Source: Candidatus Hebobacterum abditum (GTDB lineage: Bacteria; Armatimonadota; Hebobacteria; Hebobacterales; Hebobacteraceae). From it: 64,000 bases of DNA. Positions 118 to 36,429 of this stretch are shown one piece after another (within the stretch, counting starts at the first letter, position 1; each line of letters opens with the position of its first letter). The notes under the pieces were generated by a model. That model was not told the DNA's origin. It did no database searches and saw nothing but the letters and a program-made list of their open reading frames with translations. The stretch is from positions 62,001-126,000 of the forward strand of contig JALGXW010000014.1 in NCBI GenBank assembly GCA_029821875.1, written 5' to 3'. Both the position numbers and the translations under genes were made by a program.

Positions 118-665
118 GTGGCGATCGAGGGAACGCGGGCACAACCCATCGTGTCTGCCGAACCTGAGGCGGAGCTGGTCCGCCGAGTGCGCCTGGCAGA
201 TCAGGCCGCCTACGCCGACTTCTGCCGGCGCTTCGGGCCCCCGCTCCACGGCTTCGCCGCCTCTCGCCTCTCCGGCGACCACGACCTGGCCGAGGACATC
301 ATGGTCCAGACCCTTGGCTCTACGGCATCGCCCGCCGCCAGATCCAGGCCGAAATCCGCAGACAGAAGAGGCGCAAGTCCGTGCCCGCCCACGCCCAGGT
401 ACCCATCGACACCATCAACGAGGTCCCGTCTGCGGGTGACATGGCGGCCGATCTGGCCGACCGCGTCGACGCGCAGCGCAAGATCGCCGAGCTATCCCGA
501 TTCCTTTCCGACAGCGAGATGGAGGTGCTCACCCTTCATTGGGTGGACGAGTTCTCGGCCAGGGAGATCGCCCGCATAGTGGGCCGCTCCCACCGCGCGG
601 TCGAGTCCCTGCTCCATCGGGCCAGGCAGAAAGCACTGGAAAGGTGGGGTGACCATGCTGACTGA
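118..665 (+). pseudogene. ECF-type sigma-70 factor, frameshifted with an internal deletion
   Basis: The N-terminal part reads as sigma region 2 (a DHDLAEDI helix) in the frame starting with the GTG at 118, which has AAGGGGG about 7 bp upstream. A GTG at 112 would sit too close to that site. At about 303-315 the reading frame changes. The downstream frame continues with the region 2.4 motif WLYGIARRQ and then region 4 (LSDSEMEVLTLHW, helix-turn-helix AREIARIVGRSHRAVESLL). Family members have roughly 20 more residues between EDI and WLYGIARR, so about 60 bases seem lost as well as the frame. The remaining frame ends at 665, overlapping the next gene, as expected of a sigma/partner operon. It is either a broken gene or an assembly error. 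Confidence 0.75.
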
Positions 666-1860
666 TCCAAGAGAACAGCACATCGCCGCCGCATTCAAGG
701 CCGCCCGGCCCCTGCCGAGGGCGGGATGGGATGGCCGCGCCCTCGCGGCGATGGCCGAGACCCAGCCGCGCCGGCATCCGAATCTGCTCACCTTCATCAT
801 CGTCGCCGCGCTGCTGCTCTTGCTCGCCGCCGGCGTCTTCGCCGCGGTGCGCTACTTCTTCGTTGAGGGGACGCTGCATTTCCACGAATACCGCGGGCCC
901 CTCCCAGGGCATCAGGAGCCTCAGGAGCCCACCGCACGTTTCTTCGGCGGCGAGCTGCAGTGGGAGACAGATGCCCGGCCCTCCGAAACGGGGGACATCG
1001 CCCCGGTCAGCGGCAAGGTGGTCTACTGGTGGGAGGACACGTGGCCCCCCACGCGCACCGAAATCCTCGTGTCCAACCTCGACTGGTCCGACGAGGTCAA
1101 CCTCACTGAGATCGCCGGGATCGGTGGCATCAACTGCGTCCCGAAGTGGTCTCCTGACGAAACCATGATCGCCTTCCAGCACTGCGACCCCGTGGAGGGC
1201 CTGCTGAACTGCAAGGCCGGATTCCACCTGTGGGTGATGAATGCGGACGGCTCTGATGCTCACCGGGTCATGCCTGAGGGTGCGCCTCCCACCGATTGCG
1301 GCACCTGGTCGCCCGACGGCTCCCGCCTCCTCACTTACATTCGGGAGCCGGACTCGTATGGGGAGCAGATCGGCGCGATCAGCACCGACATCTGGGGCAC
1401 AGACATCCTAGTGTTGCCCAATGTTGGGCGGTCCGGCTCTTGGTCTCCCGATGGCACCATGATAGTCAGCGACTACGCCGAGAAGGGGGAGTTTGATGGC
1501 CAGGAGGGGCGGTGGAATCAGCTTCTCCTCACAAATGCCGATGGCAGCGAGCCCAGAGTCCTGGTGGAGCAGTCCATTGCTGAGGCAGACATCCGCGCCC
1601 ACTATCCAACTGAGGACCAGCTCGCGCAGATTCCCGATGTCGATATCCTCGTCGAGGCCGCGCAGTACTGGGCGGGGCCATGCAAGCCGGTATGGTCTCC
1701 CAACAGCGACAAGATCGCCTTCCTCGCCGCCCTGCCCTTCGAGCCGGACGGGCTCGACAACAGGCGGCAGGCTGAGGTCTGGGTCTACGACCTTACCACC
1801 GATGAGCTGATCAGAGTCACGAACGACGATATCATGCAATCCAACATCATCTGGAAGTAG
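655..1860 (+). CDS. Membrane-anchored PD40/TolB-like beta-propeller protein, possible sigma partner
   Basis: This 401-residue protein has a cytoplasmic N-terminus of about 43 residues, one transmembrane helix at about 44-66 and an extracytoplasmic domain with at least four PD40 blade motifs (WSPDETMIAF, WSPDGSRLL, WSPDGTMIV, WSPNSDKIAF). PD40 propellers are known from TolB and related binding proteins. The ATG at 655 is preferred over the GTG at 649 because the ribosome site AGGTGGGG lies about 7 bp upstream of it. The gene overlaps the end of the sigma-factor frame by 11 bp. By position and topology it could be an anti-sigma or sensor protein, but no zinc-finger anti-sigma motif is visible, so this role is inferred. 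Confidence 0.7.
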   Translation: MLTDPREQHIAAAFKAARPLPRAGWDGRALAAMAETQPRRHPNLLTFIIVAALLLLLAAGVFAAVRYFFVEGTLHFHEYRGPLPGHQEPQEPTARFFGGELQWETDARPSETGDIAPVSGKVVYWWEDTWPPTRTEILVSNLDWSDEVNLTEIAGIGGINCVPKWSPDETMIAFQHCDPVEGLLNCKAGFHLWVMNADGSDAHRVMPEGAPPTDCGTWSPDGSRLLTYIREPDSYGEQIGAISTDIWGTDILVLPNVGRSGSWSPDGTMIVSDYAEKGEFDGQEGRWNQLLLTNADGSEPRVLVEQSIAEADIRAHYPTEDQLAQIPDVDILVEAAQYWAGPCKPVWSPNSDKIAFLAALPFEPDGLDNRRQAEVWVYDLTTDELIRVTNDDIMQSNIIWK

Positions 1861-2113
1861 CCCTCGCTGAGATACCACCACGAGCAGTCACCATAGCCGA
1901 CATCGCTCTCAAGCAATCGAACGCTGTTGCATAGAAGAGAATAGCAATCGACCGTTTTATAAGATAGCGATAGTTCGTTTTGCTGGATAGGGCCGTACTG
2001 ACGGCTTCACGGACGTCTGGCGGACGGAGGGAGAGACAGATAGTGGCCTTGCCCCCCCGTCGCCCAATCACACATCTGTTGAGCCATATTGCCCAATGGT
2101 GGGAGGTGTTGAG
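1861..2113. other. Intergenic region with an AT-rich patch
   Basis: No gene is recognised. About 1915-1985 is clearly more AT-rich than the surroundings (containing TTTTATAAGATAGCGATAG) and may hold the promoter of the SLH protein that follows, though no -35/-10 pair with normal spacing stands out. The ribosome site GGGAGGT at 2099-2105 serves the ATG at 2114. Confidence 0.35.
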
Positions 2114-3676
2114 ATGTTGCGGCGAACTGTGTTGCTTCTTGTCGTAGTCTTCCCCATCCTCTGCCTATCTGCGTCGAGCGTCCTCGCGGACGCCGACCTG
2201 GCCGCCACCACCGAGCGCGTCAGCGTCAGCTCTGCTGAGGCTGAAGGGAACTACAGAAGCAACTGGTCCTCCGTCAGCGCGGACGGCCGGTATGTGGCCT
2301 TCAGTTCCCTTGCCGACAACCTGGTGGCAGGCGACACGAACGGGGTCGTTGATGTCTTCGTCCGCGACCGTGTGACTGGCATCACAGACAGGGTGAGCGT
2401 AAGCGGCGCCGGGGAACAGGGCAACGACTGGAGCAACTGGCCCTCCATCAGCGCGGACGGCCGGTATGTGGCCTTCATGTCCACTGCCAACAACCTGGTG
2501 GCAGGGGACACGAACGGGAGCTGGGACGTCTTCGTGCGGGACCGGGTGAGCGGCGAGACCGAGCGCGTCAGCGTCAGCTCTGCTGAGGTAGAAGCGAACG
2601 GCGGCAGCGGGGGCGCCGTGAACCTCCTCGCCATCAGCGCGGACGGCCGGTATGTGGCCTTCCTGTCGGAGGCCACCAACCTGGTGGCCGGCGACACGAA
2701 CGGGAGCAATGACGTCTTCGTGCGGGACCGGGTGAGCGGCGAGACCGAGCGCGTCAACGTCAGCTCCGCTGGGGCTGAAGCGAACGGCCCCAGCGGTTAT
2801 TCAGTGATCAGCGCGGACGGCCGGTATGTCGCCTTCATGTCCGATGCCACCAACCTGGTGCCCGGGGACACGAACGGGAGGGCTGACGTCTTCGTGCGGG
2901 ACCGGATGGCCGGCGAGACCCAGCGCGTCAGCGTCAGCTCTGCTGGCGTAGAAGCGGACGGCCGCAGCGACGAGAACTCCATCAGCGCGGACGGGAGGTA
3001 TGTGGCCTTCGGCTCCAGGGCCAGCAACCTGGTGCCCGGGGACACGAACGGCACCAGGGACATCTTCGTGCGCGGGCCACTCGAGTACTACGACGGCCCG
3101 CCTCCCACGTTCGATGATGTCTCACCAAGCTTCTGGGCCTTCGATGAGGTCGAAGCGTGCGCCGCTGCCGGCATCGTCTCGGGCTACGGGGATGGTCTCT
3201 ACCATCCCGAGTTGGGCGTGACCAGAGATCAGATGGCGGTCTACATCTCCCGGGCTTTGGCCGGCGGCGATGAGAACGTGCCAGACTTCACCGCCACCCC
3301 GACCTTCCCCGATGTCGGCGACACGCACTGGGCCCTGAAGTACGTGGAGTACGCCGTCTCTTGTAGCGTCGTCTCCGGCTACCTCGACGGCACCTACCGT
3401 CCTGAGTATCCAGTGACCAGAGACCAGATGGCGGTGTATGTTGCCCGTTCCATCTGCGACCCGACGGGCGAAGACGGCCTAACTGACTACGTCCCGGCCG
3501 ACCCTCGCAACTTCCCCGATGTGTCCTCCGGCTTCTGGTCCTACAAGCACGTCGAGTACTGTGTCGAGAACGGCGTGGTGGCCGGCTACCTTGACGGCTA
3601 CTACCGCCCCGATTACGTCGTCACCCGCGACCAGATGGCGGTGTACGTGGCGAGGGCGTTCGGGCTGATGCCTTAG
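2114..3676 (+). CDS. Exported PD40-repeat protein with three C-terminal SLH domains
   Basis: The protein has about 520 residues. A signal peptide (MLRRTVLLLVVV...SSVLADA) is followed by five tandem repeats of about 58 residues, each carrying SADGRYVAF and then GDTNG..DVFVRDR. These are PD40/TolB-like blades, so a five-bladed propeller is likely. Three SLH domains end the protein, each with the pattern FPDV..FW....VEYCVENGVVAGY and TRDQMAVYVARA. SLH domains hold proteins on the cell wall or S-layer, so a surface location follows. The ATG at 2114 is chosen over the ATG at 2096 because GGGAGGT sits at the right distance and the signal peptide then starts cleanly. The next gene converges on it with a 5-bp gap. 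Confidence 0.88.
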   Translation: MLRRTVLLLVVVFPILCLSASSVLADADLAATTERVSVSSAEAEGNYRSNWSSVSADGRYVAFSSLADNLVAGDTNGVVDVFVRDRVTGITDRVSVSGAGEQGNDWSNWPSISADGRYVAFMSTANNLVAGDTNGSWDVFVRDRVSGETERVSVSSAEVEANGGSGGAVNLLAISADGRYVAFLSEATNLVAGDTNGSNDVFVRDRVSGETERVNVSSAGAEANGPSGYSVISADGRYVAFMSDATNLVPGDTNGRADVFVRDRMAGETQRVSVSSAGVEADGRSDENSISADGRYVAFGSRASNLVPGDTNGTRDIFVRGPLEYYDGPPPTFDDVSPSFWAFDEVEACAAAGIVSGYGDGLYHPELGVTRDQMAVYISRALAGGDENVPDFTATPTFPDVGDTHWALKYVEYAVSCSVVSGYLDGTYRPEYPVTRDQMAVYVARSICDPTGEDGLTDYVPADPRNFPDVSSGFWSYKHVEYCVENGVVAGYLDGYYRPDYVVTRDQMAVYVARAFGLMP

Positions 3677-3681
3677 CCTGG

Positions 3682-4986
3682 CTAGTGCAACACTTCGCCC
3701 GTCACGAGGAGGTAGCCAGCGTACCACTTGGTGCCGTCGTATCGCTTGGGGTCGTCCATGGTGACGCCGCGCTCCGCCAGCAGCTTCACCTTGTCGGGCT
3801 GCTCGTCATCGATCTCGAGCCTGATGGTGTGCTCCTCGTCGGGCAGGTCGGTGGCGGCGATCATCACCGTGACGCGGTGGCCCGTACACCAGGAGTCGAA
3901 CCGCGGCACGATCTTCGGCTTCCCATCGTCGACGGTGACGATGATCTGCCCGCAGTCGGGGCCGACCATGTCGTAGACCATCACGCTGGTGCCGCGGAAG
4001 CGGAAGGCGATGCTCTCGCCCGGCTCCTCGGCCAGCCACAGCGCGTCGAGCTTGTCCCCGAACTCCGCGCCCTCGCGGAGCTTCCTCACGGCCGGATCGA
4101 TCACCACGTCGAGCTTCCGCCATCCGGCGCTCAGCTCCGCGCGGTCGAGCGGGATCGGCTTCGCGTACTCGAAGTTATCCTCGCGAAAGGGATCGGGCAG
4201 GGAGTGGGGGCCGGGCTGGCCCGCGCCCTTCATCTTCTCGATCGAGCGGGCGACGGCCTCCGCGTAGAGCCGGTGGCCGGCATCGTACGGGTGGATGCCA
4301 TCACCCGAGAAGAGGATCCTGTCGCCGAGGGCGGCCTTCTCCTCCTCGGTCTCCGGCCACCGGCCGGTGAAGACGAGCTTGCCCTCGTGTTCGAGGCGGG
4401 CCACCTCCAGCCCCATGAGGATGGTCGGCATATCGTAGTGCTCGGCGATGTCCGCATGCTCGGTGTAGGTGTGGGGGACCTCGCCCTGCCTCAGACCCTT
4501 GGTCATCCATTGCCCCACCACGAAGACGAAGCAGATATCGATGTCGGGGTCGGCGCGGCGGGCCTTGCGCACGATTCCCTCTATCGACTTGTGGATGCGC
4601 TCACCGGAGGTCGACAAGTCGTTGCCCGCGAACTCGATGAAGAGCAGATCGGGATTGTGACGGAGCACATCGCGCTCGAGCCGGAAGACTCCGAGGTCGG
4701 AGCTGGTGCCGGAGATGCCGGCGTTGATCGCCTCGATGCGCGCCTGGGGGTACTGCTCCCGGAACCACTCCTCGGTCATGGTGCGCCAGCCGGCGGACTT
4801 CGTGATGCTGCCGCCCAGGTAGGCGATGCGCACCTCGCCGCCTCGTTCGAGCTTGTGGAGGGCATTGGGCAGGCCACCGCGGGGAACGCACTCAGGCGGC
4901 AGGCGGAGAGGCGATTCATCGGCCGATCCACTGCCACAGGCAAGGGCGATCACGAGCACGACCACCAGACCCAGAAACCACGTCAT
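3682..4986 (-). CDS. Exported SGNH/GDSL-family hydrolase
   Basis: The 434-residue protein starts with a hydrophobic leader ending ALAC-GSGS, a lipobox-like site but with Ala at -3. The SGNH fold shows block I GGSIT (nucleophile Ser60), block II NAGISG (about 88-93), block III GND (121-123) and block V DGIHPYDAGH (Asp229/His232). These are the residues of the esterase triad and oxyanion hole. After about residue 255 comes a beta-rich C-terminal domain resembling the jelly-roll halves of carbohydrate esterases, so de-acylation of a polysaccharide is plausible. It sits between SLH surface proteins on the opposite strand. The substrate is unknown. Confidence 0.85.
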   Translation of the reverse strand: MTWFLGLVVVLVIALACGSGSADESPLRLPPECVPRGGLPNALHKLERGGEVRIAYLGGSITKSAGWRTMTEEWFREQYPQARIEAINAGISGTSSDLGVFRLERDVLRHNPDLLFIEFAGNDLSTSGERIHKSIEGIVRKARRADPDIDICFVFVVGQWMTKGLRQGEVPHTYTEHADIAEHYDMPTILMGLEVARLEHEGKLVFTGRWPETEEEKAALGDRILFSGDGIHPYDAGHRLYAEAVARSIEKMKGAGQPGPHSLPDPFREDNFEYAKPIPLDRAELSAGWRKLDVVIDPAVRKLREGAEFGDKLDALWLAEEPGESIAFRFRGTSVMVYDMVGPDCGQIIVTVDDGKPKIVPRFDSWCTGHRVTVMIAATDLPDEEHTIRLEIDDEQPDKVKLLAERGVTMDDPKRYDGTKWYAGYLLVTGEVLH

Positions 4987-5216: not shown

Positions 5217-7361
5217 ATGAGATGCGGATTGGTGGCGACGGTTCTACTCTGCTTCATCCTCAGCATGGGTGGAGCGGCCTTCGGCCAGGCCGACTTCGTC
5301 TACTTCAGCACGGATTTGGGCACCGTTCCCTACTACGAAGCGATGGCCGTGCTGGCCTTTCAAGGGTTAGTGAACCGGGACGGGCCGCGCTTGTACGTGA
5401 ACACGAGGACGTTGCATCCGTGGTCGGGACCGGATCCCAAGTCATGGCGCAACGAATGGGACGAAACGTGGCTCTCGATCTTCGACTCCCGGGGCTATCA
5501 ATACGAGACGGTGACCTCTCTATCGGCTCTCTTCGAGCGACCCAACTTCCGTTCCGCGGTCTCGGGGCTCGTCATCTACGATCCTGACCAGCTCGCGTCC
5601 TCGGCGTGGATCGCCATGACGATCGCTGGCGTCGAAGACCGTCTGCCCGTGACCGCGGACTTGCTGTCGGTCGTGCCGAACCTCACTACGTGGTGGCCAG
5701 ACCAGTTCGACCTGCGCCCGTTGGGCGACAAGGTGGCCGAATACCAGTGGCTCGTTGACAACTACCTCCTCGCCAGCAGCGACGAGGCGGCCTATGTGGT
5801 TGGACACGATTCCCCGTACGGCGACCCGGGAGACATATTCGGCCTGGACTATGCGGTGGCGAAGGGGGCCTTCGTCTTCGACTTGTCGCTTAATCCGGAC
5901 CGTCCGCAAGAGGAAGCGCTGGCCGACGCGATCGTGCGGCATCTTGCAGCTCCCGCGCCGATTCTTGGCTACTACGGTGAAGTGAGCAGCGGCGACTACG
6001 CAGCAGAGCGCGGCAACTACGTCATCAACACGGTCTGCGCCTCCAACCTCAGCTTCCATCACCAGATACCCCGGCAGTCTGCCGATCCGCTGGTGCAGAC
6101 CACGCGCTACACGCCCGAGGAGTTGGAGATCGATCCGACCAAGTACTATCTCGCGTTTGTCTTCACGGACGGCGACCGCTTGGCACATCCCACCCGCCTC
6201 TACCGGGCCGGGGCCTGGTTCGATCCGGCTCGAGGACACGTCCCGATGAACTGGGGGCTTAACGCGAACTTCTTCCGAGAGCTTCCGGCGATGGTCGAGT
6301 ACTACTACTCCACCGCGACCGAGAATGACTACTTCTACGCCGGTCAGGACACCCGCGTGAGCCGCCTGCCAAATCGCGGCGACTACGCAGCGTTGTTTGC
6401 CCAGTCCATGGCCGACTTCGACCTCAACATTGCATCCATGCTCGACGACAACTTGGACCCGACGATCTGGGACCCGTTCCTTGCGGCCTCGGGCATACAG
6501 GCCGTGGTCCACACGCGAGCGAACGAGCTGATGTTCCTGGGAGACCACGTGCCTTTCCTGCCCAACCGTTTCGACTGGCCGTGGTTCCACGGCGGCGGTG
6601 CCACCTCCGCCGAGATCGCGGCCGACATCATGGCAACGATGTCCGCAGGTCCCCCGCCGGCCTTCGCCACCATCACCGACCTGCTGCTCGACTCACCCTC
6701 GGCGGCGAAGGAGGTGATGGACTACCTGACGCCGCACGGATGCGTTTTCGTCCGCCTCGACGAGATGGGCGCTCTCGCCCGGCAGATCGACCACTTCTAC
6801 GATATTGGCACGAAGTACTGGGCTCACGACGAGGTGGAGGCATGCTTCGAGGCGGGGATCGTGCAGGGCTACTCGGAGACACACTACCAGCCGACGCTGC
6901 CCGTCACCCGCGATCAGATGGCGGTGTACATCTCCCGCGCCCTGGCCGGTGGCGACGCCAACGTCCCCGAGTTCACCGACACGCCGACCTTCCCCGATGT
7001 GCCGGAGGGATCTTGGGCGCTGGACTATGTGGAGTACGCGGTCGATCAGAACGTCGTCGGCGGCTACGGGGATGGCACCTACCATCCCGAGTATGAGGTC
7101 GACCGGGGGCAGATGGCGGTGTATGTCGCCCGCTCCCTGGTCGCGCCGAGCGGGGAGGCGGCGCTGGCCGATTACGTCCCGGCCGACCCGCGCAACTTCC
7201 CCGATGTGGCGTCTGACTTCTGGGCCTACACGCACGTGGAGTACTGTGTCGAGAACGGCGTGGTCGCGGGCTACCTCGACGGCCTCTATCACCCCGAGAT
7301 CGTTGTCACCCGCGACCAGATGGCGGTGTACGTGGCGAGGGCGTTTGGGTTGGCGGGGTAG
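5217..7361 (+). CDS. Exported GxGYxYP-type protein with three C-terminal SLH domains
   Basis: The protein has 714 residues. A signal peptide ends near AAFGQA. The body begins with FVYFSTDLGTVPYYEAMAVL and LAFQGLVNRDGPRLYV, which matches the start of the GxGYxYP family, a group of putative glycoside-hydrolase-like proteins of unknown activity. Later blocks include YYLAFVFTDGDRL and MNWGLN. From about residue 525 three SLH domains follow, ending VTRDQMAVYVARAFGLAG, nearly identical to those of the flanking surface proteins. The ribosome site AAGGGAGG at 5201-5208 supports the ATG at 5217. A role in surface carbohydrate handling is likely by family, but the reaction is unknown. Confidence 0.83.
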   Translation: MRCGLVATVLLCFILSMGGAAFGQADFVYFSTDLGTVPYYEAMAVLAFQGLVNRDGPRLYVNTRTLHPWSGPDPKSWRNEWDETWLSIFDSRGYQYETVTSLSALFERPNFRSAVSGLVIYDPDQLASSAWIAMTIAGVEDRLPVTADLLSVVPNLTTWWPDQFDLRPLGDKVAEYQWLVDNYLLASSDEAAYVVGHDSPYGDPGDIFGLDYAVAKGAFVFDLSLNPDRPQEEALADAIVRHLAAPAPILGYYGEVSSGDYAAERGNYVINTVCASNLSFHHQIPRQSADPLVQTTRYTPEELEIDPTKYYLAFVFTDGDRLAHPTRLYRAGAWFDPARGHVPMNWGLNANFFRELPAMVEYYYSTATENDYFYAGQDTRVSRLPNRGDYAALFAQSMADFDLNIASMLDDNLDPTIWDPFLAASGIQAVVHTRANELMFLGDHVPFLPNRFDWPWFHGGGATSAEIAADIMATMSAGPPPAFATITDLLLDSPSAAKEVMDYLTPHGCVFVRLDEMGALARQIDHFYDIGTKYWAHDEVEACFEAGIVQGYSETHYQPTLPVTRDQMAVYISRALAGGDANVPEFTDTPTFPDVPEGSWALDYVEYAVDQNVVGGYGDGTYHPEYEVDRGQMAVYVARSLVAPSGEAALADYVPADPRNFPDVASDFWAYTHVEYCVENGVVAGYLDGLYHPEIVVTRDQMAVYVARAFGLAG

Positions 7362-7459
7362 GCGGAATGGGCCGGGGGGCGGAGGGGAAGACAGAGTGAG
7401 TCGGGCCGGGACACCATCCGTGTCTTCTGCTGGGAGATGCCCGGGGGAAGGTGGTTAAG

Positions 7460-9523
7460 GTGAAGACGAGATGGATTCCAGGGATGCTCGCGGTGGTTGT
7501 CATCTGTTCCGTGGGCGGCGCGGCGGAGGCTCAGCAGTTCTCTGACCTTGCCCCTGCGCTGGGGCTCCCCGGAGCGGTCGGCGCTGCCTGGGGGGACTAC
7601 AACGACGACGGGTACGCGGATCTGTTTGTCGCCGGCAACGACTATCTGGGGTACGGCGCTCGCCTCTTCAGGAACAACGGCAACCTGACCTTCGCCGATG
7701 TGAGCGCGGCGATGGGCATCTCCATGACCACTGAAGGGCAGATTGCGCCGGCCTGGGCCGACTACGACAACGACGGCGATCTCGACGTCTTCGTCGGGTC
7801 GGACGGCCTCGTTCCGAAGCTCTACCGCAATGAGGGCGACCACTTCGTGGACGTCGCGACGGAGGCCGGGGTCGCGTCCATCATCGGCTCCCTCGCAGCT
7901 CGCACCGCGGCCTGGTGCGACTACGACGGGGACCACTGGCTCGACCTCTTCGTTTCCGGCGGCGGGCCCCGACTGCTTCACAACAACGGGGATGGAACTT
8001 TCAGTGACGCCACTTCGTCGGCGGGCATGACCGGCCCGGCAGAGCCCGAGGGCGGGAACTGCTGCGCATGGGGCGACTACGACGACGATGGGTGGCCCGA
8101 CCTGATCGTCACGCGAATCGAGGGGCGGCGGCCTCTTCTCTATCACAGCAACGGCGACGGGACCTTCTCGGAAGAGGGCGGCTTCCTGTCTGTGGTCGAC
8201 GGTGGCGTTGGCGTGGCCTGGCTGGACTACGACAATGACCGGCTCGTGGACTTCTACATCACCAGCGGCCCGCCCCAGGCCAGAGACTGGCTGTTCCATA
8301 ACAACGGCGATGGCACGTTCACCGATGTCGCAGCTTCGGCCGGAATGGCCGGTGAGGCATCATCTTCTGATTCGGTGGCCTGGGCGGACTACGACAACGA
8401 CGGCTATGTGGACATCTATGTTGGCAACACGCAGACCGGCGGGGAGTCGCTGCTCTACCACAACAACGGCGACGGGACGTTCACGAACCGCGCTCCCACA
8501 GAGGGAATGGCGGGGACCTACCACGACGAGGCCGCAGTGTGGGCCGATGTGGACCTGGACGGGAAGGTGGATCTCTTCCAGGCGGGCCAGTTGATCTCGC
8601 GCTTCTTCCACAACAACGGGCCGGCCGGCAACTGGCTGCGGCTGCGCGCGCTCACCAACGCGACCGGCGCGGCTACGATCAGCGAGTTCCCCGCCCGTGA
8701 CGCCATCGGCGCCCGAGTCGAGCTCAACCTCGACAATGACGACGGCTTTCCTCCCGGCCGCACTGTGGTCCGGATGATCGACGGCGGCTCGGGATTCATG
8801 AGCCAGAACGAACAGGTGGCGCACTTCGGGGTCGGCGACTCGACGGTCGTGTGTGTGCGGGTGTTGTTCCCCGACGGCAGCATTGTCACCCACCGCAGCG
8901 TGCCGGTCAACCAGCAGATCACGATCAGAGACATCCCTGTGGGGCCCCAGGGGACCTTCCCCGACGTGCCTCGCGACTTCTGGGCCTACGAGGCGATCGA
9001 GAAGTGTGCGGAGGTGGGCATCGTCGCGGGCTATCCGGACGGCCTCTACCATCCCGAGATCGCCGTCACCCGGGATCAGATGGCCGTCTACATCTCCCGT
9101 GCCCTGGCAGGTTCGGACTTCGACGTGCCCGAGTTCACCGGCACTCCTACGTTCCCCGATGTCGATGAGATGCACTGGGCGCTGAGGCACGTCGAGTACG
9201 CGGTCGACCAGAACGTCGTCGCCGGCTACCAGGATGGCACTTACCATCCCGAATACGAGGTGACCCGGGACCAGATGGCGGTGTACGTGGCCCGCTCTCT
9301 CGTCGCGCCTGACGGCGAAGAGGGCCTGGCCGATTACGTGCCCGCCGACCCCCGCAACTTCCCCGACGTGGCCTCTGACTTCTGGGCCTATACGCACGTC
9401 GAGTACTGCGTCGAGAACGGTGTGGTGGCCGGCTACCTCGACGGGCTCTATCACCCCGAAATCGTCGTGACCCGCGATCAAATGGCGGTCTACGTGGCGA
9501 GGGCGTTTGGGTTGATGCCCTAG
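7460..9523 (+). CDS. Exported FG-GAP/ASPIC (UnbV) repeat protein with three SLH domains
   Basis: The protein has about 687 residues. A signal peptide (ending GGAAEA) precedes seven FG-GAP-like blades with calcium-binding loops such as DYNDDGYADLFV, DYDNDGDLDVFV and DYDNDGYVDIYV. This is an integrin-alpha-type propeller. An ASPIC/UnbV domain follows (NWLRLRALTN, GARVEL, GFMSQNEQVAHFGVG, VRVLFPDG), and three SLH domains end the protein. The GTG at 7460 is preferred over the GTG at 7451 because GGGGAAGGTGG lies about 7 bp before it. It follows the GxGYxYP-SLH gene with a 98-bp gap and may share its transcript. The role is probably a surface-displayed binding protein. Confidence 0.87.
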   Translation: MKTRWIPGMLAVVVICSVGGAAEAQQFSDLAPALGLPGAVGAAWGDYNDDGYADLFVAGNDYLGYGARLFRNNGNLTFADVSAAMGISMTTEGQIAPAWADYDNDGDLDVFVGSDGLVPKLYRNEGDHFVDVATEAGVASIIGSLAARTAAWCDYDGDHWLDLFVSGGGPRLLHNNGDGTFSDATSSAGMTGPAEPEGGNCCAWGDYDDDGWPDLIVTRIEGRRPLLYHSNGDGTFSEEGGFLSVVDGGVGVAWLDYDNDRLVDFYITSGPPQARDWLFHNNGDGTFTDVAASAGMAGEASSSDSVAWADYDNDGYVDIYVGNTQTGGESLLYHNNGDGTFTNRAPTEGMAGTYHDEAAVWADVDLDGKVDLFQAGQLISRFFHNNGPAGNWLRLRALTNATGAATISEFPARDAIGARVELNLDNDDGFPPGRTVVRMIDGGSGFMSQNEQVAHFGVGDSTVVCVRVLFPDGSIVTHRSVPVNQQITIRDIPVGPQGTFPDVPRDFWAYEAIEKCAEVGIVAGYPDGLYHPEIAVTRDQMAVYISRALAGSDFDVPEFTGTPTFPDVDEMHWALRHVEYAVDQNVVAGYQDGTYHPEYEVTRDQMAVYVARSLVAPDGEEGLADYVPADPRNFPDVASDFWAYTHVEYCVENGVVAGYLDGLYHPEIVVTRDQMAVYVARAFGLMP

Positions 9524-27745: not shown

Positions 27746-29266
27746 TCACTGGTTCATGCTCACCGGGCCGGAGACGTTGCTGATGGAGGTGCTGCCGCCG
27801 GCAGCGTCGATGGTCAGCTCGCCCTCCACATTTGCGACCGCTATGTCTCCCCCGGCGCTGTTGGCGGTGACTGACCCGGAGATGTCCGAGATAGAGATGC
27901 TGCCACCGCCGGTCTCGGCCACCAGCAGATCACCCTCGACGTCACTGACGCTTATGTTGCCGCCGCCGGTCTTCGCAGTTGCGGCCCCCTCCACCTTCGA
28001 GACCGAAATGTCGCCGCCGCCGCTTTCGGCAGTGAGCTCACCCTCTACGCCGCTGGCGTTCACATTCCCGCCGCCAGTGTTCGCGCTCACGGCTCCCTCG
28101 ACATCTGAGACCGAGATGTCTCCCCCGCCGCTGGTGAGGGTGGCCTCGCCTTGGACGCCGCCGACCGATATGTTGCCGCCGGCAGTGTCCGCCCGCACCT
28201 CGCCCTCGATCTGACTTAGGCTGATGTCCCCTCCGCCGGTCTCCGCCTTCACCGGTCCTCCGATCTCGCTCACGGAGATGTCGCCGCCGTCGGTCCTGAG
28301 CACGAGCTCGCCGGTGAGAGAGGCGGCCGCGATGGAGCCGCCTTTCGTGTGAGCGCTGATCTCCGCCTCACACGGGATCTCGAACCGGAACGTCAGGTCA
28401 TTGGTCGCGTCGGGGTTGTCCGGGTCGCCGAGCGTGAACCTGTGCTGTCCATCTTCCTGATCGCCCGACCAGGGTACTTCCTTCTCCCACCCGTCGGGCA
28501 GAGGTTCGCCCTTGTCGACCGGCTTGCGCACGATCAGGCGAAACTCCCCCTCCTCCGTACCGGCGAGTTCGAGGTTCCCGGTATGGCATGTGATCGCCAA
28601 GTCAATTCTGTCATCCCCGACCGAGTACGAGGTGAGCACCGCCTCCTCGCCGCGCTCGCGGCGCCTGTGTGCCGACGGCGGATGCGGAGGCTTGGGGGGA
28701 CGAGGAGGCTTTGGGGGCCGCGGGGGGCGCGGACCGTGCGGCCAATCTTCCCCCTCGTCCGCGCTGTCGGAGAAGGTCCCGTAGTTCTCCTCGCACTTGT
28801 CCTCGAGGATGGCTATCAGCTTGCCGGGCCCGCTCACCGTGCCGTAGTTGGCGAAGCTGCCGATCTTCCGTTCGAGGAGTTCCTTCGGAACATCATCGCG
28901 CACGATCAGGTGGCCGAAGTTCGCGTAGGAGGTGCCATCCTCCATGCGCTCCAGCAGGTGATGGCTCAGCTTGGCGGTGGTGAAGTTCTCGCGGGTGGGA
29001 TCGCCGACCGCGTGTGACCCGCCGAACCTTCCGGCCAACCTTCCAACTACATGGCGTTGAATCTGTTGGGCGAGGGAGCGGCCGAACTGGCCCCAGTTCA
29101 CGCTGCGGGTGTGGGGTGGTCCGGCCTCCAAGCCTTCCTGCTCGGCGTCGCCCCGCGCCTCGCCACGGTGGCTCTCCTCGACGGCATTCAGCAGCTCACC
29201 CGCCTGCTCGACGGTGATGCGGCCCTCCTTCAGCATCTCCAGAATCCTCGTCCGTTCCCCTTCCAT
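27746..29266 (-). CDS. SHOCT-like/DUF4097 beta-helix repeat protein (LiaX/YvlB-like)
   Basis: The protein has 506 residues. The N-terminus (ILEMLKEGRITVEQAGELLNAVEE) is the SHOCT-like helical hairpin found at the start of YvlB/LiaX-type proteins. A Pro-rich linker (PRPPRPPKPPRPPKPP, about 190-207) follows. From about residue 305 there are eleven repeats of about 18 residues of the form TGGGDISVSDVEGAVSAN, a DUF4097 right-handed beta-helix. LiaX is known as an envelope-stress sensor in Firmicutes, so an envelope-linked role is plausible. No signal peptide or membrane helix is seen. It follows the DUF2089 regulator with a 54-bp gap and is probably controlled by it. Confidence 0.8.
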   Translation of the reverse strand: MEGERTRILEMLKEGRITVEQAGELLNAVEESHRGEARGDAEQEGLEAGPPHTRSVNWGQFGRSLAQQIQRHVVGRLAGRFGGSHAVGDPTRENFTTAKLSHHLLERMEDGTSYANFGHLIVRDDVPKELLERKIGSFANYGTVSGPGKLIAILEDKCEENYGTFSDSADEGEDWPHGPRPPRPPKPPRPPKPPHPPSAHRRRERGEEAVLTSYSVGDDRIDLAITCHTGNLELAGTEEGEFRLIVRKPVDKGEPLPDGWEKEVPWSGDQEDGQHRFTLGDPDNPDATNDLTFRFEIPCEAEISAHTKGGSIAAASLTGELVLRTDGGDISVSEIGGPVKAETGGGDISLSQIEGEVRADTAGGNISVGGVQGEATLTSGGGDISVSDVEGAVSANTGGGNVNASGVEGELTAESGGGDISVSKVEGAATAKTGGGNISVSDVEGDLLVAETGGGSISISDISGSVTANSAGGDIAVANVEGELTIDAAGGSTSISNVSGPVSMNQ

Positions 29267-29320: not shown

Positions 29321-29713
29321 TCAATCGGTGAGTGAGCGAAGCTCGCCGGCCGCCTCCTCGGGCGTCATCTCTCCAGCCTGAAGCCGGTCGAGGATCTCCT
29401 GGCGTCGGGCGGCGCGGTCCTCCGCGGCCTCGGCCTGCTCCTTCGTCGGCGTATAGCCGAGCGCGGTCAGGAGAGCATTGACGCGAGACCTGACCGTCGG
29501 GTAGGAGAGCCCCAGCGCCTTCTCCATGTCTCGCAGCACACCCCGGCAGCTCAGGAACACATCGAGCAGGCGGCGCTGCTCGGGGTCGAGGGCGCAGAAG
29601 CGGCAGCCCCGCTCGAAATGCCCGCTGAGGCGCAGATCGCAGGCCTCACAGGTCAGCTCGGTCACCCGCAGGGCTTGCTGGCAGCCCGGACAACGGTTGA
29701 CGTCTGTGCTCAT
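29321..29713 (-). CDS. DUF2089-family zinc-ribbon regulator
   Basis: The protein has 130 residues. An N-terminal zinc ribbon (CPGCQ...CEAC, then a further CRFC) precedes a helix-turn-helix-like segment (LLDVFLSCRGVLRDMEKALG, SYPTVRSRVNALLTALGY) and a C-terminal SHOCT-like hairpin (EILDRLQAGEMTPEEAAGEL) of the same kind as in the next gene's N-terminus. DUF2089 proteins are usually found next to DUF4097/SHOCT genes, as here. DNA binding is inferred. The 5' end and promoter of this gene are copied at 31130-31233. Confidence 0.85.
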   Translation of the reverse strand: MSTDVNRCPGCQQALRVTELTCEACDLRLSGHFERGCRFCALDPEQRRLLDVFLSCRGVLRDMEKALGLSYPTVRSRVNALLTALGYTPTKEQAEAAEDRAARRQEILDRLQAGEMTPEEAAGELRSLTD

Positions 29714-31656: not shown

Positions 31657-32085
31657 ATGATGTGCCGCAGACGAGCGCTGGTGGCGGCGGCCTCGCTGCT
31701 GGCCCTCGCGGCCGCGTGCATCGGCTGCGGCCCGAAGGAACCTCCGCCCCCGGGCGGGGCCTTCACCGACGTGTCGCGGCCCGCCACCGCGGCTCGGGCC
31801 CGCCCCTCGGGTTCGCAGGCCGGTGGGGTGCCGAGCGCGGCCGGAGGAGTGGTCCTCCCACCTGGAGCGGGCCCCGCGGCAGGGGCAGACAGAACTGCGG
31901 TCGAGACCGACGTAGACGACTACCTCCAGCGCGCCAGGGAGTACGAGCAGCAGCAGGAGGAACTTCGCCAACAGGAGCTCGAATCGACGCCACCCTCCGA
32001 CATGTGGGTGCCCATCCCCGAAGCGCCCGAGGCCGAGGAGACTCAGCCGCTCGAAGACGAGACCGCCGCCTACCCATCGGGCTAG
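31657..32085 (+). CDS. Small proline/acid-rich lipoprotein upstream of hgcA
   Basis: The protein has 142 residues. A basic, hydrophobic leader ends LALAAACIGCG, a lipoprotein-like cleavage site. The rest is low-complexity: Pro/Ala/Gly-rich, then a short helical stretch (YLQRAREYEQQQEELRQQEL) and an acidic tail. No domain is recognised. AGGAGGGGGA precedes the ATG. hgcA starts 47 bp after its stop on the same strand, so they are probably co-transcribed; whether it has any role in that pathway is unknown. Confidence 0.6.
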   Translation: MMCRRRALVAAASLLALAAACIGCGPKEPPPPGGAFTDVSRPATAARARPSGSQAGGVPSAAGGVVLPPGAGPAAGADRTAVETDVDDYLQRAREYEQQQEELRQQELESTPPSDMWVPIPEAPEAEETQPLEDETAAYPSG

Positions 32086-32132: not shown

Positions 32133-33140
32133 GTGACCAGTGAGAGGTCGTCCGGCCGCCCCTCCGTCAGAGCCACGACCAGCACCCTGACGCTCGCCAA
32201 CTGGTGGGACCACTTCCTGGCGCGGTGGGGTGTGAACCGCATGGGGCACCGGGTCGATCCCGGCCTCTACGCGCTGGGCCAGCCGAAGCCCGACTCGCCC
32301 GTGTTCGTGACGGCCAACTACACGCTCAGCTTCGACGCGCTGCGCTCGGCCCTGCCGAACACCGACGCCTACCTCCTCGTTCTCGATACGGAAGGCATCA
32401 ACGTCTGGTGCGCGGCCGGCAAGGGCACCTTCGGGACGGACGAGCTCGTGCAGAGGATCGACGCGGTGGGGTTGGCAGAGGTCGTTCGTCACCGCGACCT
32501 GATCCTGCCGCAGCTCGGAGCCCCCGGCGTGAATGCGCACGAGGTCAAGCGCCGCAGTGGATTCAACGTGAAGTATGGCCCCGTTCGCGCGGCCGATCTG
32601 CCGGCCTACCTCAGCGCTCGCCAGGCCACGCCGGAGATGCGCCGAGTGCGGTTCGGGCTGCTCGACCGCGTCGTCCTGATACCGGTCGAACTGGTGCATG
32701 TGCTCTGGCCAACCGTGGCGGCGGCGATCGTGCTGTGGCTCGCGGCAGGGGGCCTCTTCGCGGCCGGCATTCTCGCCGCCGTGCTGGCCGGGGTGGTGCT
32801 GTTCCCGGCCTTGCTGCCCTGGATTCCGACCCGGGACTTCACGAGCAAGGGATTTGTCCTCGGGCTTGCGGCCAGCGCGCCCTTCGCCCTGACTCTCCTC
32901 CTGTGGAAGCAGGGCGGCCCGGCCTGGATCGCGCCGGCGTGGGCGGGTGCGTTTCTGCTGATGGCGCTTCCGGTGACAGGGTTCCTCGCGCTGAACTTCA
33001 CGGGTTCGACTCCATTCACCTCGCGCAGTGGGGTACGGCGGGAGATACAGAAGTACACGCGGCTGATGGCGGCGATGTTCGGCGGTGGTATAATACTGCT
33101 GATAGCGCTCATCGTGATCGGCCTGGTGATAGAGAGATGA
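32133..33140 (+). CDS. hgcA: HgcA, corrinoid protein of mercury methylation
   Basis: The protein has 335 residues. The N-terminal corrinoid-binding domain is related to the acetyl-CoA-pathway CFeSP. It carries the diagnostic cap-helix motif NVWCAAGKGTFGTDEL, with the cobalt-ligand cysteine at residue 93, the same number as in the characterised Desulfovibrio (Pseudodesulfovibrio) ND132 protein. LILPQLGAPGVNAHEVKR and FNVKYGPVRAADLPAYL also match. Five transmembrane helices make up the last 130 residues, so the protein sits in the inner membrane. HgcA is known to pass a methyl group from its corrinoid to Hg(II). The GTG at 32133 has GGAG 9 bp upstream and gives the usual N-terminus. It overlaps hgcB by ATGA. 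Confidence 0.95.
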   Translation: MTSERSSGRPSVRATTSTLTLANWWDHFLARWGVNRMGHRVDPGLYALGQPKPDSPVFVTANYTLSFDALRSALPNTDAYLLVLDTEGINVWCAAGKGTFGTDELVQRIDAVGLAEVVRHRDLILPQLGAPGVNAHEVKRRSGFNVKYGPVRAADLPAYLSARQATPEMRRVRFGLLDRVVLIPVELVHVLWPTVAAAIVLWLAAGGLFAAGILAAVLAGVVLFPALLPWIPTRDFTSKGFVLGLAASAPFALTLLLWKQGGPAWIAPAWAGAFLLMALPVTGFLALNFTGSTPFTSRSGVRREIQKYTRLMAAMFGGGIILLIALIVIGLVIER

Positions 33141-33430
33141 TGTCATCTGTGTCGGCGGCGAACACGCTGGAATACGACGCCGAGCGGTGCGTGAACTGCG
33201 GCCTGTGCAGCGCGGTCTGTCCCCACGGAGTCTTCGCGCAGGGAGAGGGCGCGGCCGAGGTCGTCAACGCGGAGGCCTGCATGGAGTGCGGCGCCTGCCA
33301 GCTGAACTGCCCCTCTGGAGCGATCCAGGTGGAGAGCGGCGTCGGGTGCGCCTATGCCCTCATGCGGGCCGCACTGAAGGGCGAGAGGGAGTCCGACTGC
33401 TGCGGCGGCGGCGATACGACCTGCGGCTGA
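33137..33430 (+). CDS. hgcB: HgcB, 2[4Fe-4S] ferredoxin of mercury methylation
   Basis: The protein has 97 residues. It has two [4Fe-4S] motifs, CVNCGLCSAVCP (Cys18-28) and CMECGACQLNCP (Cys48-58), the second in the CMECGAC form diagnostic for HgcB. Cys71 (GVGCAYAL) corresponds to the lone conserved cysteine, and a vicinal pair Cys88-Cys89 lies near the C-terminus, with a further Cys96. HgcB is known to reduce the HgcA corrinoid and is thought to bind Hg(II) through the terminal cysteines. The ATG at 33137 overlaps the hgcA stop codon (ATGA), so the two are translationally coupled. Confidence 0.95.
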   Translation: MMSSVSAANTLEYDAERCVNCGLCSAVCPHGVFAQGEGAAEVVNAEACMECGACQLNCPSGAIQVESGVGCAYALMRAALKGERESDCCGGGDTTCG

Positions 33431-33607: not shown

Positions 33608-34576
33608 ATGCCAGCCGCGCTGGGCCATCGCGAGCGGGTGTTGCGCTCCATTGAGCATCGCGACATCGATCGCGTCGCCTGTTATTTCGCCGCCGAGGAG
33701 GAGACGCAGGCAATGCTGCACGCCCGTCTCGGCCTCAGGGACGCACAGGAGGCGACGCGCTTCTTCGACGCCGACACAATCCAGGTGACGATCTACTGCG
33801 CCCTTCCCGATTTGTCCCCGGTCCAGTCCATCGAAGACCTGGAGGGATTGCCGTGGCCGAGCCGCGAGCGGGTGGACCTGCCGGCCGAGGTGCAGCGCGT
33901 GCGGGAGGCCCGCGCTACCGGCCTGGCGGTGATGGGCGGCGCCTGGGCAACCATCTTCACTGGGGCGCGGCGGAGCATGGGCGAGGAGCGGTATCTGCTG
34001 GCGATGGTGGATCAGCCCGAGCTGATCGCCAACATCATCCGCCGGGCCGCCGAGGGCTTCCTGGACATCAATGAGGCGCTCTTCTCGGAATGCGCCGACG
34101 GCCTCGACGTGTTCTACTTCGGCACCGATTTCGGCACTCAGCGCTCGCTCTTCATCAGCCCCGAGGCCGTCCGGGGTCTCTTCCTGCCCCATCTCGCGCG
34201 GCTCGCCGAGCACGCCCACGTCTTCGGGCTCAAGGTGATGTTCCACACGTGTGGGGCGGTGGCCGACCTCATCCCGGACTTCATCGCCTGCGGCATCGAT
34301 GTGCTCGACCCGGTGCAAGTCGCGGCGACGGCGATGGCGCCCGAGATGCTGGCGGCGCGGTTCGGCGGCCAGATCGCCTTCCACGGCGGCATCAGCACCC
34401 AGACCCTCCTTCCCCGCGCCGCGCCCGATGAAGTACGCGCTGTGACCGAGGAGACTGTTCGCGCCCTTGGCCCCACCGGCTACATCGCCGGCCCCGACCA
34501 GTGGCTGATGTCGGACATCCCCATCGAGAACATGGTGGCGATGTACGAGGCAATCCGCGGCTATGGGGTGGCATGA
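33608..34576 (+). CDS. URO-D-superfamily protein, candidate methyltransferase
   Basis: The protein has 322 residues. It matches the uroporphyrinogen decarboxylase superfamily, whose members include MtaA-type corrinoid:thiol methyltransferases. The pattern VMFHTCGAVADLIPDFIACG carries the HxC of the zinc site, and FHGGISTQTLLP and GPDQWLMSDIPIENM complete the barrel. The third zinc cysteine of MtaA is absent near GPDQW. The N-terminal catalytic Arg/Asp pattern of true HemE is not seen, so haem synthesis is unlikely. It follows hgcB on the same strand with a 177-bp gap. A link to methyl transfer onto HgcA is attractive but only inferred. Confidence 0.75.
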   Translation: MPAALGHRERVLRSIEHRDIDRVACYFAAEEETQAMLHARLGLRDAQEATRFFDADTIQVTIYCALPDLSPVQSIEDLEGLPWPSRERVDLPAEVQRVREARATGLAVMGGAWATIFTGARRSMGEERYLLAMVDQPELIANIIRRAAEGFLDINEALFSECADGLDVFYFGTDFGTQRSLFISPEAVRGLFLPHLARLAEHAHVFGLKVMFHTCGAVADLIPDFIACGIDVLDPVQVAATAMAPEMLAARFGGQIAFHGGISTQTLLPRAAPDEVRAVTEETVRALGPTGYIAGPDQWLMSDIPIENMVAMYEAIRGYGVA

Positions 34577-35777: not shown

Positions 35778-36278
35778 CTAACCGAGATCCACTTTGCCAA
35801 ACAACAGCGTCGCCAACAGCCCGGCGATGGGTGGGAAGAAGAGGGTGCAGGCCAGCCGGATGGCGGCGAACTTCCAGCCGAGAATGCCCAACTCCAGGGG
35901 CAGGCGCGCCACCGCCCACAGCGACCACGCCGTGAGGAAGGCCACGATCGTGCCCACCCCCGCGCCCGTCCGCAGCAGCCCGGCCGCTATCGGCATGCTG
36001 ACAAAGGGTCCACCGGGAGTGAACACCCCCGCCGCCGTCCCCAGCAGAATCCCCCGCAGTCCGGACCCGGGGCCGATCCAGGTGGAGATCAGCTCCTTCG
36101 GCAGCAGTGTCTGCACGAGTCCGGCCGCCAGAAACGCGAACAGCAGCAGCGGCAGGACCTGCGCGGTGAGCTGCAGCCCTGTCTTCGCGCCCTCGACGTG
36201 CTCCCCCTGACCGCGGAAGTATCCGATGCACAGAAGCGCAACTGCAAGCGCCCCCATCACGATGGTCGGGATGAGCAT
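35778..36278 (-). CDS. Permease of the DUF318/ArsP-like family, short form
   Basis: The protein has 166 residues with four to five membrane helices. The motif GTAAGVFTPGGPFVSMPIAAGLLRTGAG is the conserved core of the YraQ/ArsP-like permeases, and WIGPGSGLRGILLG precedes it. Full family members have about 300-350 residues with two such halves, so this is a half-size member that may work as a dimer. The ATG at 36278 has AAAGGAAGGGG just upstream and is preferred to an earlier ATG at 36305. It is 81 bp upstream of the phosphotriesterase-family gene on the same strand. Confidence 0.75.
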   Translation of the reverse strand: MLIPTIVMGALAVALLCIGYFRGQGEHVEGAKTGLQLTAQVLPLLLFAFLAAGLVQTLLPKELISTWIGPGSGLRGILLGTAAGVFTPGGPFVSMPIAAGLLRTGAGVGTIVAFLTAWSLWAVARLPLELGILGWKFAAIRLACTLFFPPIAGLLATLLFGKVDLG

Positions 36279-36429
36279 GGCGGTTCCCCTTCCTTTGGCG
36301 GCCATCAGTAGCCTCTCAAGTCAGTGTGCTGCTGGATTGCGGCCTGCGAACTGAATATGCCGGCAGAAGGGTATTGGCCGCCGCCGCGCCCGATCCTCGC
36401 GGGGAAGTCGTGGGGCAGGACCTAGCCCC

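Follow-up and report, generated by a model that had tools for sequence, protein, structure and literature searches.

The window (the whole 64,000-nucleotide stretch of DNA analysed here) very likely carries a genuine and intact hgcAB operon of an acetogen-like anaerobe of Candidatus Hebobacteria, for which methylmercury formation is predicted. The host is a member of this class of Armatimonadota (NCBI taxonomy). The name was proposed for GTDB class CAIYQO01 and the group was described in 2023 as acetogen-like bacteria of anoxic sediments with the Wood-Ljungdahl pathway (PMC10290634). Judged on sequence, the known pair of genes is here recorded in a new host and in a divergent branch of HgcA; this record is well supported and adds Armatimonadota to the candidate methylmercury producers.

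The two genes lie on the same strand with hgcB directly downstream of hgcA, overlapping in an ATGA at 33137-33140 (Table 1). HgcA scores 428.5 bits (E 1.6e-128) against the NCBIfam model NF040863, far above the curated cut-off of 275, and HgcB scores 110.7 bits (E 2.2e-32) against NF040864, for which the cut-off is 99. Since both curated cut-offs are exceeded, a chance match is excluded, and the intact pair claimed in the preliminary description stands. That description also called the pair the necessary and sufficient marker of methylation, which is too strong; its presence predicts methylation and is not a demonstration. A fused HgcAB-like protein (NF043039) was considered and rejected, as there are two separate genes here, scoring 214.9 bits (HgcA) and 48.1 bits (HgcB), both below the cut-off of 285.

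Table 1. Features of the hgcAB region and related loci. Positions refer to the window unless another contig is named.
Feature	Position	Strand	Remarks
hgcA	32133..33140	+	Membrane corrinoid protein, 335 aa, GTG start, TGA stop; profile, tree, fold
HgcA cap-helix motif NVWCAAGK with Cys93	32400..32423	+	Sequence; Cys93 predicted lower ligand of the corrinoid cobalt
HgcA transmembrane domain	32679..33134	+	Five helices, residues 183-334; AlphaFold2 secondary structure, hydropathy
hgcB	33137..33430	+	Ferredoxin, two [4Fe-4S] motifs, 97 aa, ATG start, TGA stop
Forward primer site, ORNL-HgcAB-uni-F	32400-32419	+	Exact match, within NVWCAAGK motif codons
Reverse primer site, uni-32R	33278..33297	+	CMECGA codons, exact match
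Lipoprotein-like small ORF	31657..32085	+	142 aa, upstream of hgcA; 69% DNA identity in genus-mate
URO-D/MtaA-like protein	33608..34576	+	178 bp downstream of hgcB; Pfam PF01208, 62.8 bits
SLH genes	2096-3676, 5217-7361, 7451-9523		About 23 kb upstream of hgcAB
HgcA remnant L066 (G195:C1)	3981-4130	-	
HgcA fragment L065 (G007:C135)	511-705		N-terminal piece, 65 residues

HgcA has a single cysteine, Cys93, and the corresponding column is invariant in all 22 aligned HgcA sequences. In Desulfovibrio desulfuricans ND132 the change of Cys93 to alanine or threonine abolishes methylation (PMC7305189). HgcB carries CX2CX2CX3C motifs at positions 18-28 and 48-58, followed by the lone Cys71, the vicinal Cys88-Cys89 pair and Cys96. 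The lone cysteine is present in 22 of 22 HgcB compared and, by its position after the second cluster motif, Cys71 would be the counterpart of Cys73 of ND132 HgcB. Methylation is abolished when Cys73 is replaced by alanine, and full activity requires at least one C-terminal cysteine (PMC7305189). Equivalents of all these ND132 cysteines are present in the window HgcA and HgcB.

An AlphaFold2 model of HgcA, computed with 22 HgcA sequences as input (mean pLDDT 83, pTM 0.66), consists of an N-terminal corrinoid domain and then five C-terminal helices, spanning residues 183-205, 207-230, 236-258, 266-292 and 298-334. Among PDB entries the published HgcAB model 9a0b ranks first (E 2.4e-19, 42% identity to chain 9a0b_A in the structural alignment), with entries for the corrinoid iron-sulfur protein (CFeSP) following at E 5e-6 and weaker. 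The similarities to the ND132 system (PMC7305189; PDB model 9a0b) extend to domain order, Cys93 and the five membrane helices in HgcA, and to the two ferredoxin motifs, the lone cysteine and the C-terminal cysteines in HgcB. Apart from sequence, the difference lies in the host, here a member of Armatimonadota in whose genome a profile search gave no DsrA above the cut-off. The cap-helix motif with Cys93, the lone and vicinal cysteines of HgcB, the ATGA overlap and the five membrane helices had all been described previously for this DNA, and each is confirmed, by the sequence, the coordinates or the AlphaFold2 model; Cys96 is an addition to that list.

Profile searches and a tree had been proposed as checks on the first gene. 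The profile score is given above; in the tree, the HgcA members of which are without verified activity, HgcA is split from CFeSP at 100/100 and the window protein falls on the HgcA side. The four Hebobacteria HgcA group at 83/95 (a value that is not starred) and three of them at 100/96. Their branching, window and genus-mate, then family, then class, follows the order of kinship. They are nested in a 99/100 branch shared with proteobacterial MAGs (L006/G291, L007/G292 and the class-mates G311 and G314) at up to 61-66% identity. L006 and L007 differ from the window in having other hosts by record title and no flanking genes in common beyond hgcAB. The stem of this branch is long, at 0.98 changes per column. 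Hebobacteria HgcA is probably related to that of some proteobacterial MAGs via an older transfer, in one direction or the other. One of these MAGs, titled Proteobacteria bacterium CS1-C027 (L006; G291:C227 and G291:C252), has two different HgcA genes, and MAG contamination is possible; according to PMC8261052 multiple HgcAB copies occur in no genome. In G316, a genome in the class of L007, HgcA is split over two contigs (G316:C5 and G316:C245; L108 and L106), one part lying at a contig end, and is 56-71% identical to that of the window.

Could so divergent a protein serve another purpose? The alternative that best survives is that hgcAB is intact and expressed, but that this HgcA methylates another substrate, with mercury methylation absent or a minor side activity. 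The long stem is consistent with this, as is an altered C-terminal signature, PFTSRSGVRREI in place of the TYTSLSGVKKEM of most others, and the fused HgcAB homologue of Pyrococcus furiosus does not methylate mercury (PMC8261052). The catalytic cysteines are, however, all retained, and HgcA scores far over the HgcA cut-off but only 214.9 bits with the model for HgcAB-like fusions. We consider this alternative unlikely. Similarly, there is a small chance that the branch shared by Hebobacteria and some proteobacterial MAGs, long-stemmed and with the altered signature, differs from assayed HgcA in its natural methyl acceptor or its regulation; if so, it would help to reveal the native role of HgcAB.

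Identification of the host, for our preferred reading of a Hebobacteria hgcAB operon, rests on kinship. The nearest named HgcA belongs to the MAG M3-38_Bin_440 (JALGXV010000091.1, L005/L064), titled Candidatus Hebobacteria and of the same genus, with HgcA 83% and HgcB 86% identical. Its record sequence is included, letter for letter, in the hgcAB contig of G196, which a genome search places in the same genus as the window genome. Gene order is common to the two over about 12 kb (29.8-41.9 kb of the window). The preliminary description placed the host outside the classical methylator groups, and this genus-level kinship to a named member bears it out. The argument then used, from neighbouring SLH-type surface proteins, fares less well: the SLH genes are real and the conclusion about the host was right, but at 23 kb they are not adjacent to hgcAB and the argument is weak. 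SLH proteins are also spread across the source genome on many other contigs, and as evidence of lineage SLH domains gave way to kinship and to the named Hebobacteria record.

The genomes named here are metagenome-assembled, judging by record titles, and the source assembly is MAG-like, with 103 contigs and 3.7% contamination. It is thus reasonable to ask whether a binning or assembly error has brought in hgcAB from another organism, for example a deltaproteobacterium, the more so given the level of identity to HgcA of proteobacterial MAGs. Such an error is highly improbable. It is largely refuted by the gene order common to the genus-mate; in addition, the surroundings of hgcAB agree in GC content and tetranucleotide profile with the remainder of the window and with contig C40 of the source genome, SLH genes occur on the hgcAB contig itself as well as on many others, and in G192, of the same class, hgcAB lies inside a 4.88-Mb single contig. 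A contig of mixed genomes, raised earlier as a possible objection, is therefore unlikely. The hgcA copy of G198 is on a 3-kb contig.

That the first gene is a CFeSP paralogue (CdhD/AcsC) and not HgcA is barely credible: the corrinoid-binding domains are homologous and the Pfam CdhD domain matches HgcA residues 39-150 with 57.2 bits, but the CFeSP large subunit (AcsC/CdhE) has neither the Cys93 motif nor the membrane domain, the tree separates the two at full support, and this genome encodes its CFeSP large subunit elsewhere, in a separate gene on contig C40. The CFeSP large-subunit model PRK04165 gives HgcA 80.7 bits, for the C-terminal domain only, and its cut-off of 306 is not reached.

Profile searches place HgcA above the cut-off in 5 of 291 Armatimonadota genomes: that of the window, the genus-mate, a family member, the class member with the 4.88-Mb contig and the distant G246. 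The full pair, with full-length hgcA, is present in four of the 14 genomes of the Hebobacteria class. The same-family genome G195, a single 3.15-Mb contig, has an HgcA remnant of 50 residues with 68% identity, which of all HgcA compared is most similar to that of the window; the flanks are unrelated, and the piece looks like a decayed hgcA. The HgcA piece in G007, likewise an apparent remnant lacking the remainder of the gene, is nearest to other HgcA groups. The pair hgcAB was probably present in an ancestor of the window's family or class and later lost by most members. Monophyly of all Armatimonadota HgcA is rejected when G246 is held in (p-AU about 1e-16), so hgcAB has been acquired at least twice in Armatimonadota. 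Patchy presence, a remnant and a second independent acquisition provide a usable case for the study of gain and loss of methylation. After hgcB, the G246 locus (L062, G246:C55, 6493-8389) encodes a MarR-type regulator and an arsenite methyltransferase of ArsM-like type (299.6 bits against a cut-off of 263), such that mercury and arsenic methylation genes adjoin.

Contig C40 carries a CODH/ACS operon, encoding an AcsE-like methyl-tetrahydrofolate:CFeSP methyltransferase, AcsD, AcsV, AcsC and a fused alpha/beta subunit, together with an MTHF-reductase-like gene. It is plausible that this operon represents the methyl supply for HgcA. The folate branch of the Wood-Ljungdahl pathway would then donate a methyl group to the Cys93-bound corrinoid of HgcA, whilst HgcB would reduce the cobalt and deliver Hg(II) by way of Cys71 and the C-terminal cysteines, with methylmercury the predicted end product. 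Corrinoid methylation on HgcA with HgcB supplying electrons and Hg(II) is the scheme proposed for ND132 (PMC7305189). A MerA-like gene on contig C27 scores 390.5 bits, below the curated cut-off of 454.45.

A literature search that did not extend to supplementary tables, Hg-MATE or subscription papers found no link between hgcA and Armatimonadota, and so does not establish priority. Mercury and hgcA are unmentioned in the paper describing the Hebobacteria (PMC10290634), and PMC8261052, in which both hgcA and Armatimonadota occur, counts merA genes. We caution that Hebobacteria MAGs from the Bohai Sea are of low abundance (PMC10290634) and environmental weight is therefore not to be assumed.

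The survey primers ORNL-HgcAB-uni-F and uni-32R (PMC7573106) match the window exactly, with an expected amplicon, from the coordinates, of 898 bp. Amplicons of this lineage may thus already exist in survey data, where they may sit unassigned or misassigned. The genus-mate also matches both primers exactly; against the forward primer there are two mismatches in G198 and one in G192.

Profile searches gave no family match for the small ORF upstream of hgcA. The URO-D/MtaA-like protein scores 46 bits against TIGR01463, below the cut-off of 235.4; its gene is 90% identical in the genus-mate and missing near the other hgcAB loci compared. A special tie of hgcAB to this gene or to a phosphotriesterase gene was dropped, both being common to the genus-mate only. 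Further downstream (35778-36305, minus strand) is an ArsP_1-type permease of only 175 aa, covering model positions 12-135 of 294; the genus-mate has the same half-size form, with 95% identity. On the other side, also on the minus strand, a DUF2089 zinc-ribbon/HTH protein has as its neighbour one of 506 aa, which combines a DUF2089-C SHOCT-like domain with repeats (two genes, 27746-29266 and 29321-29713).
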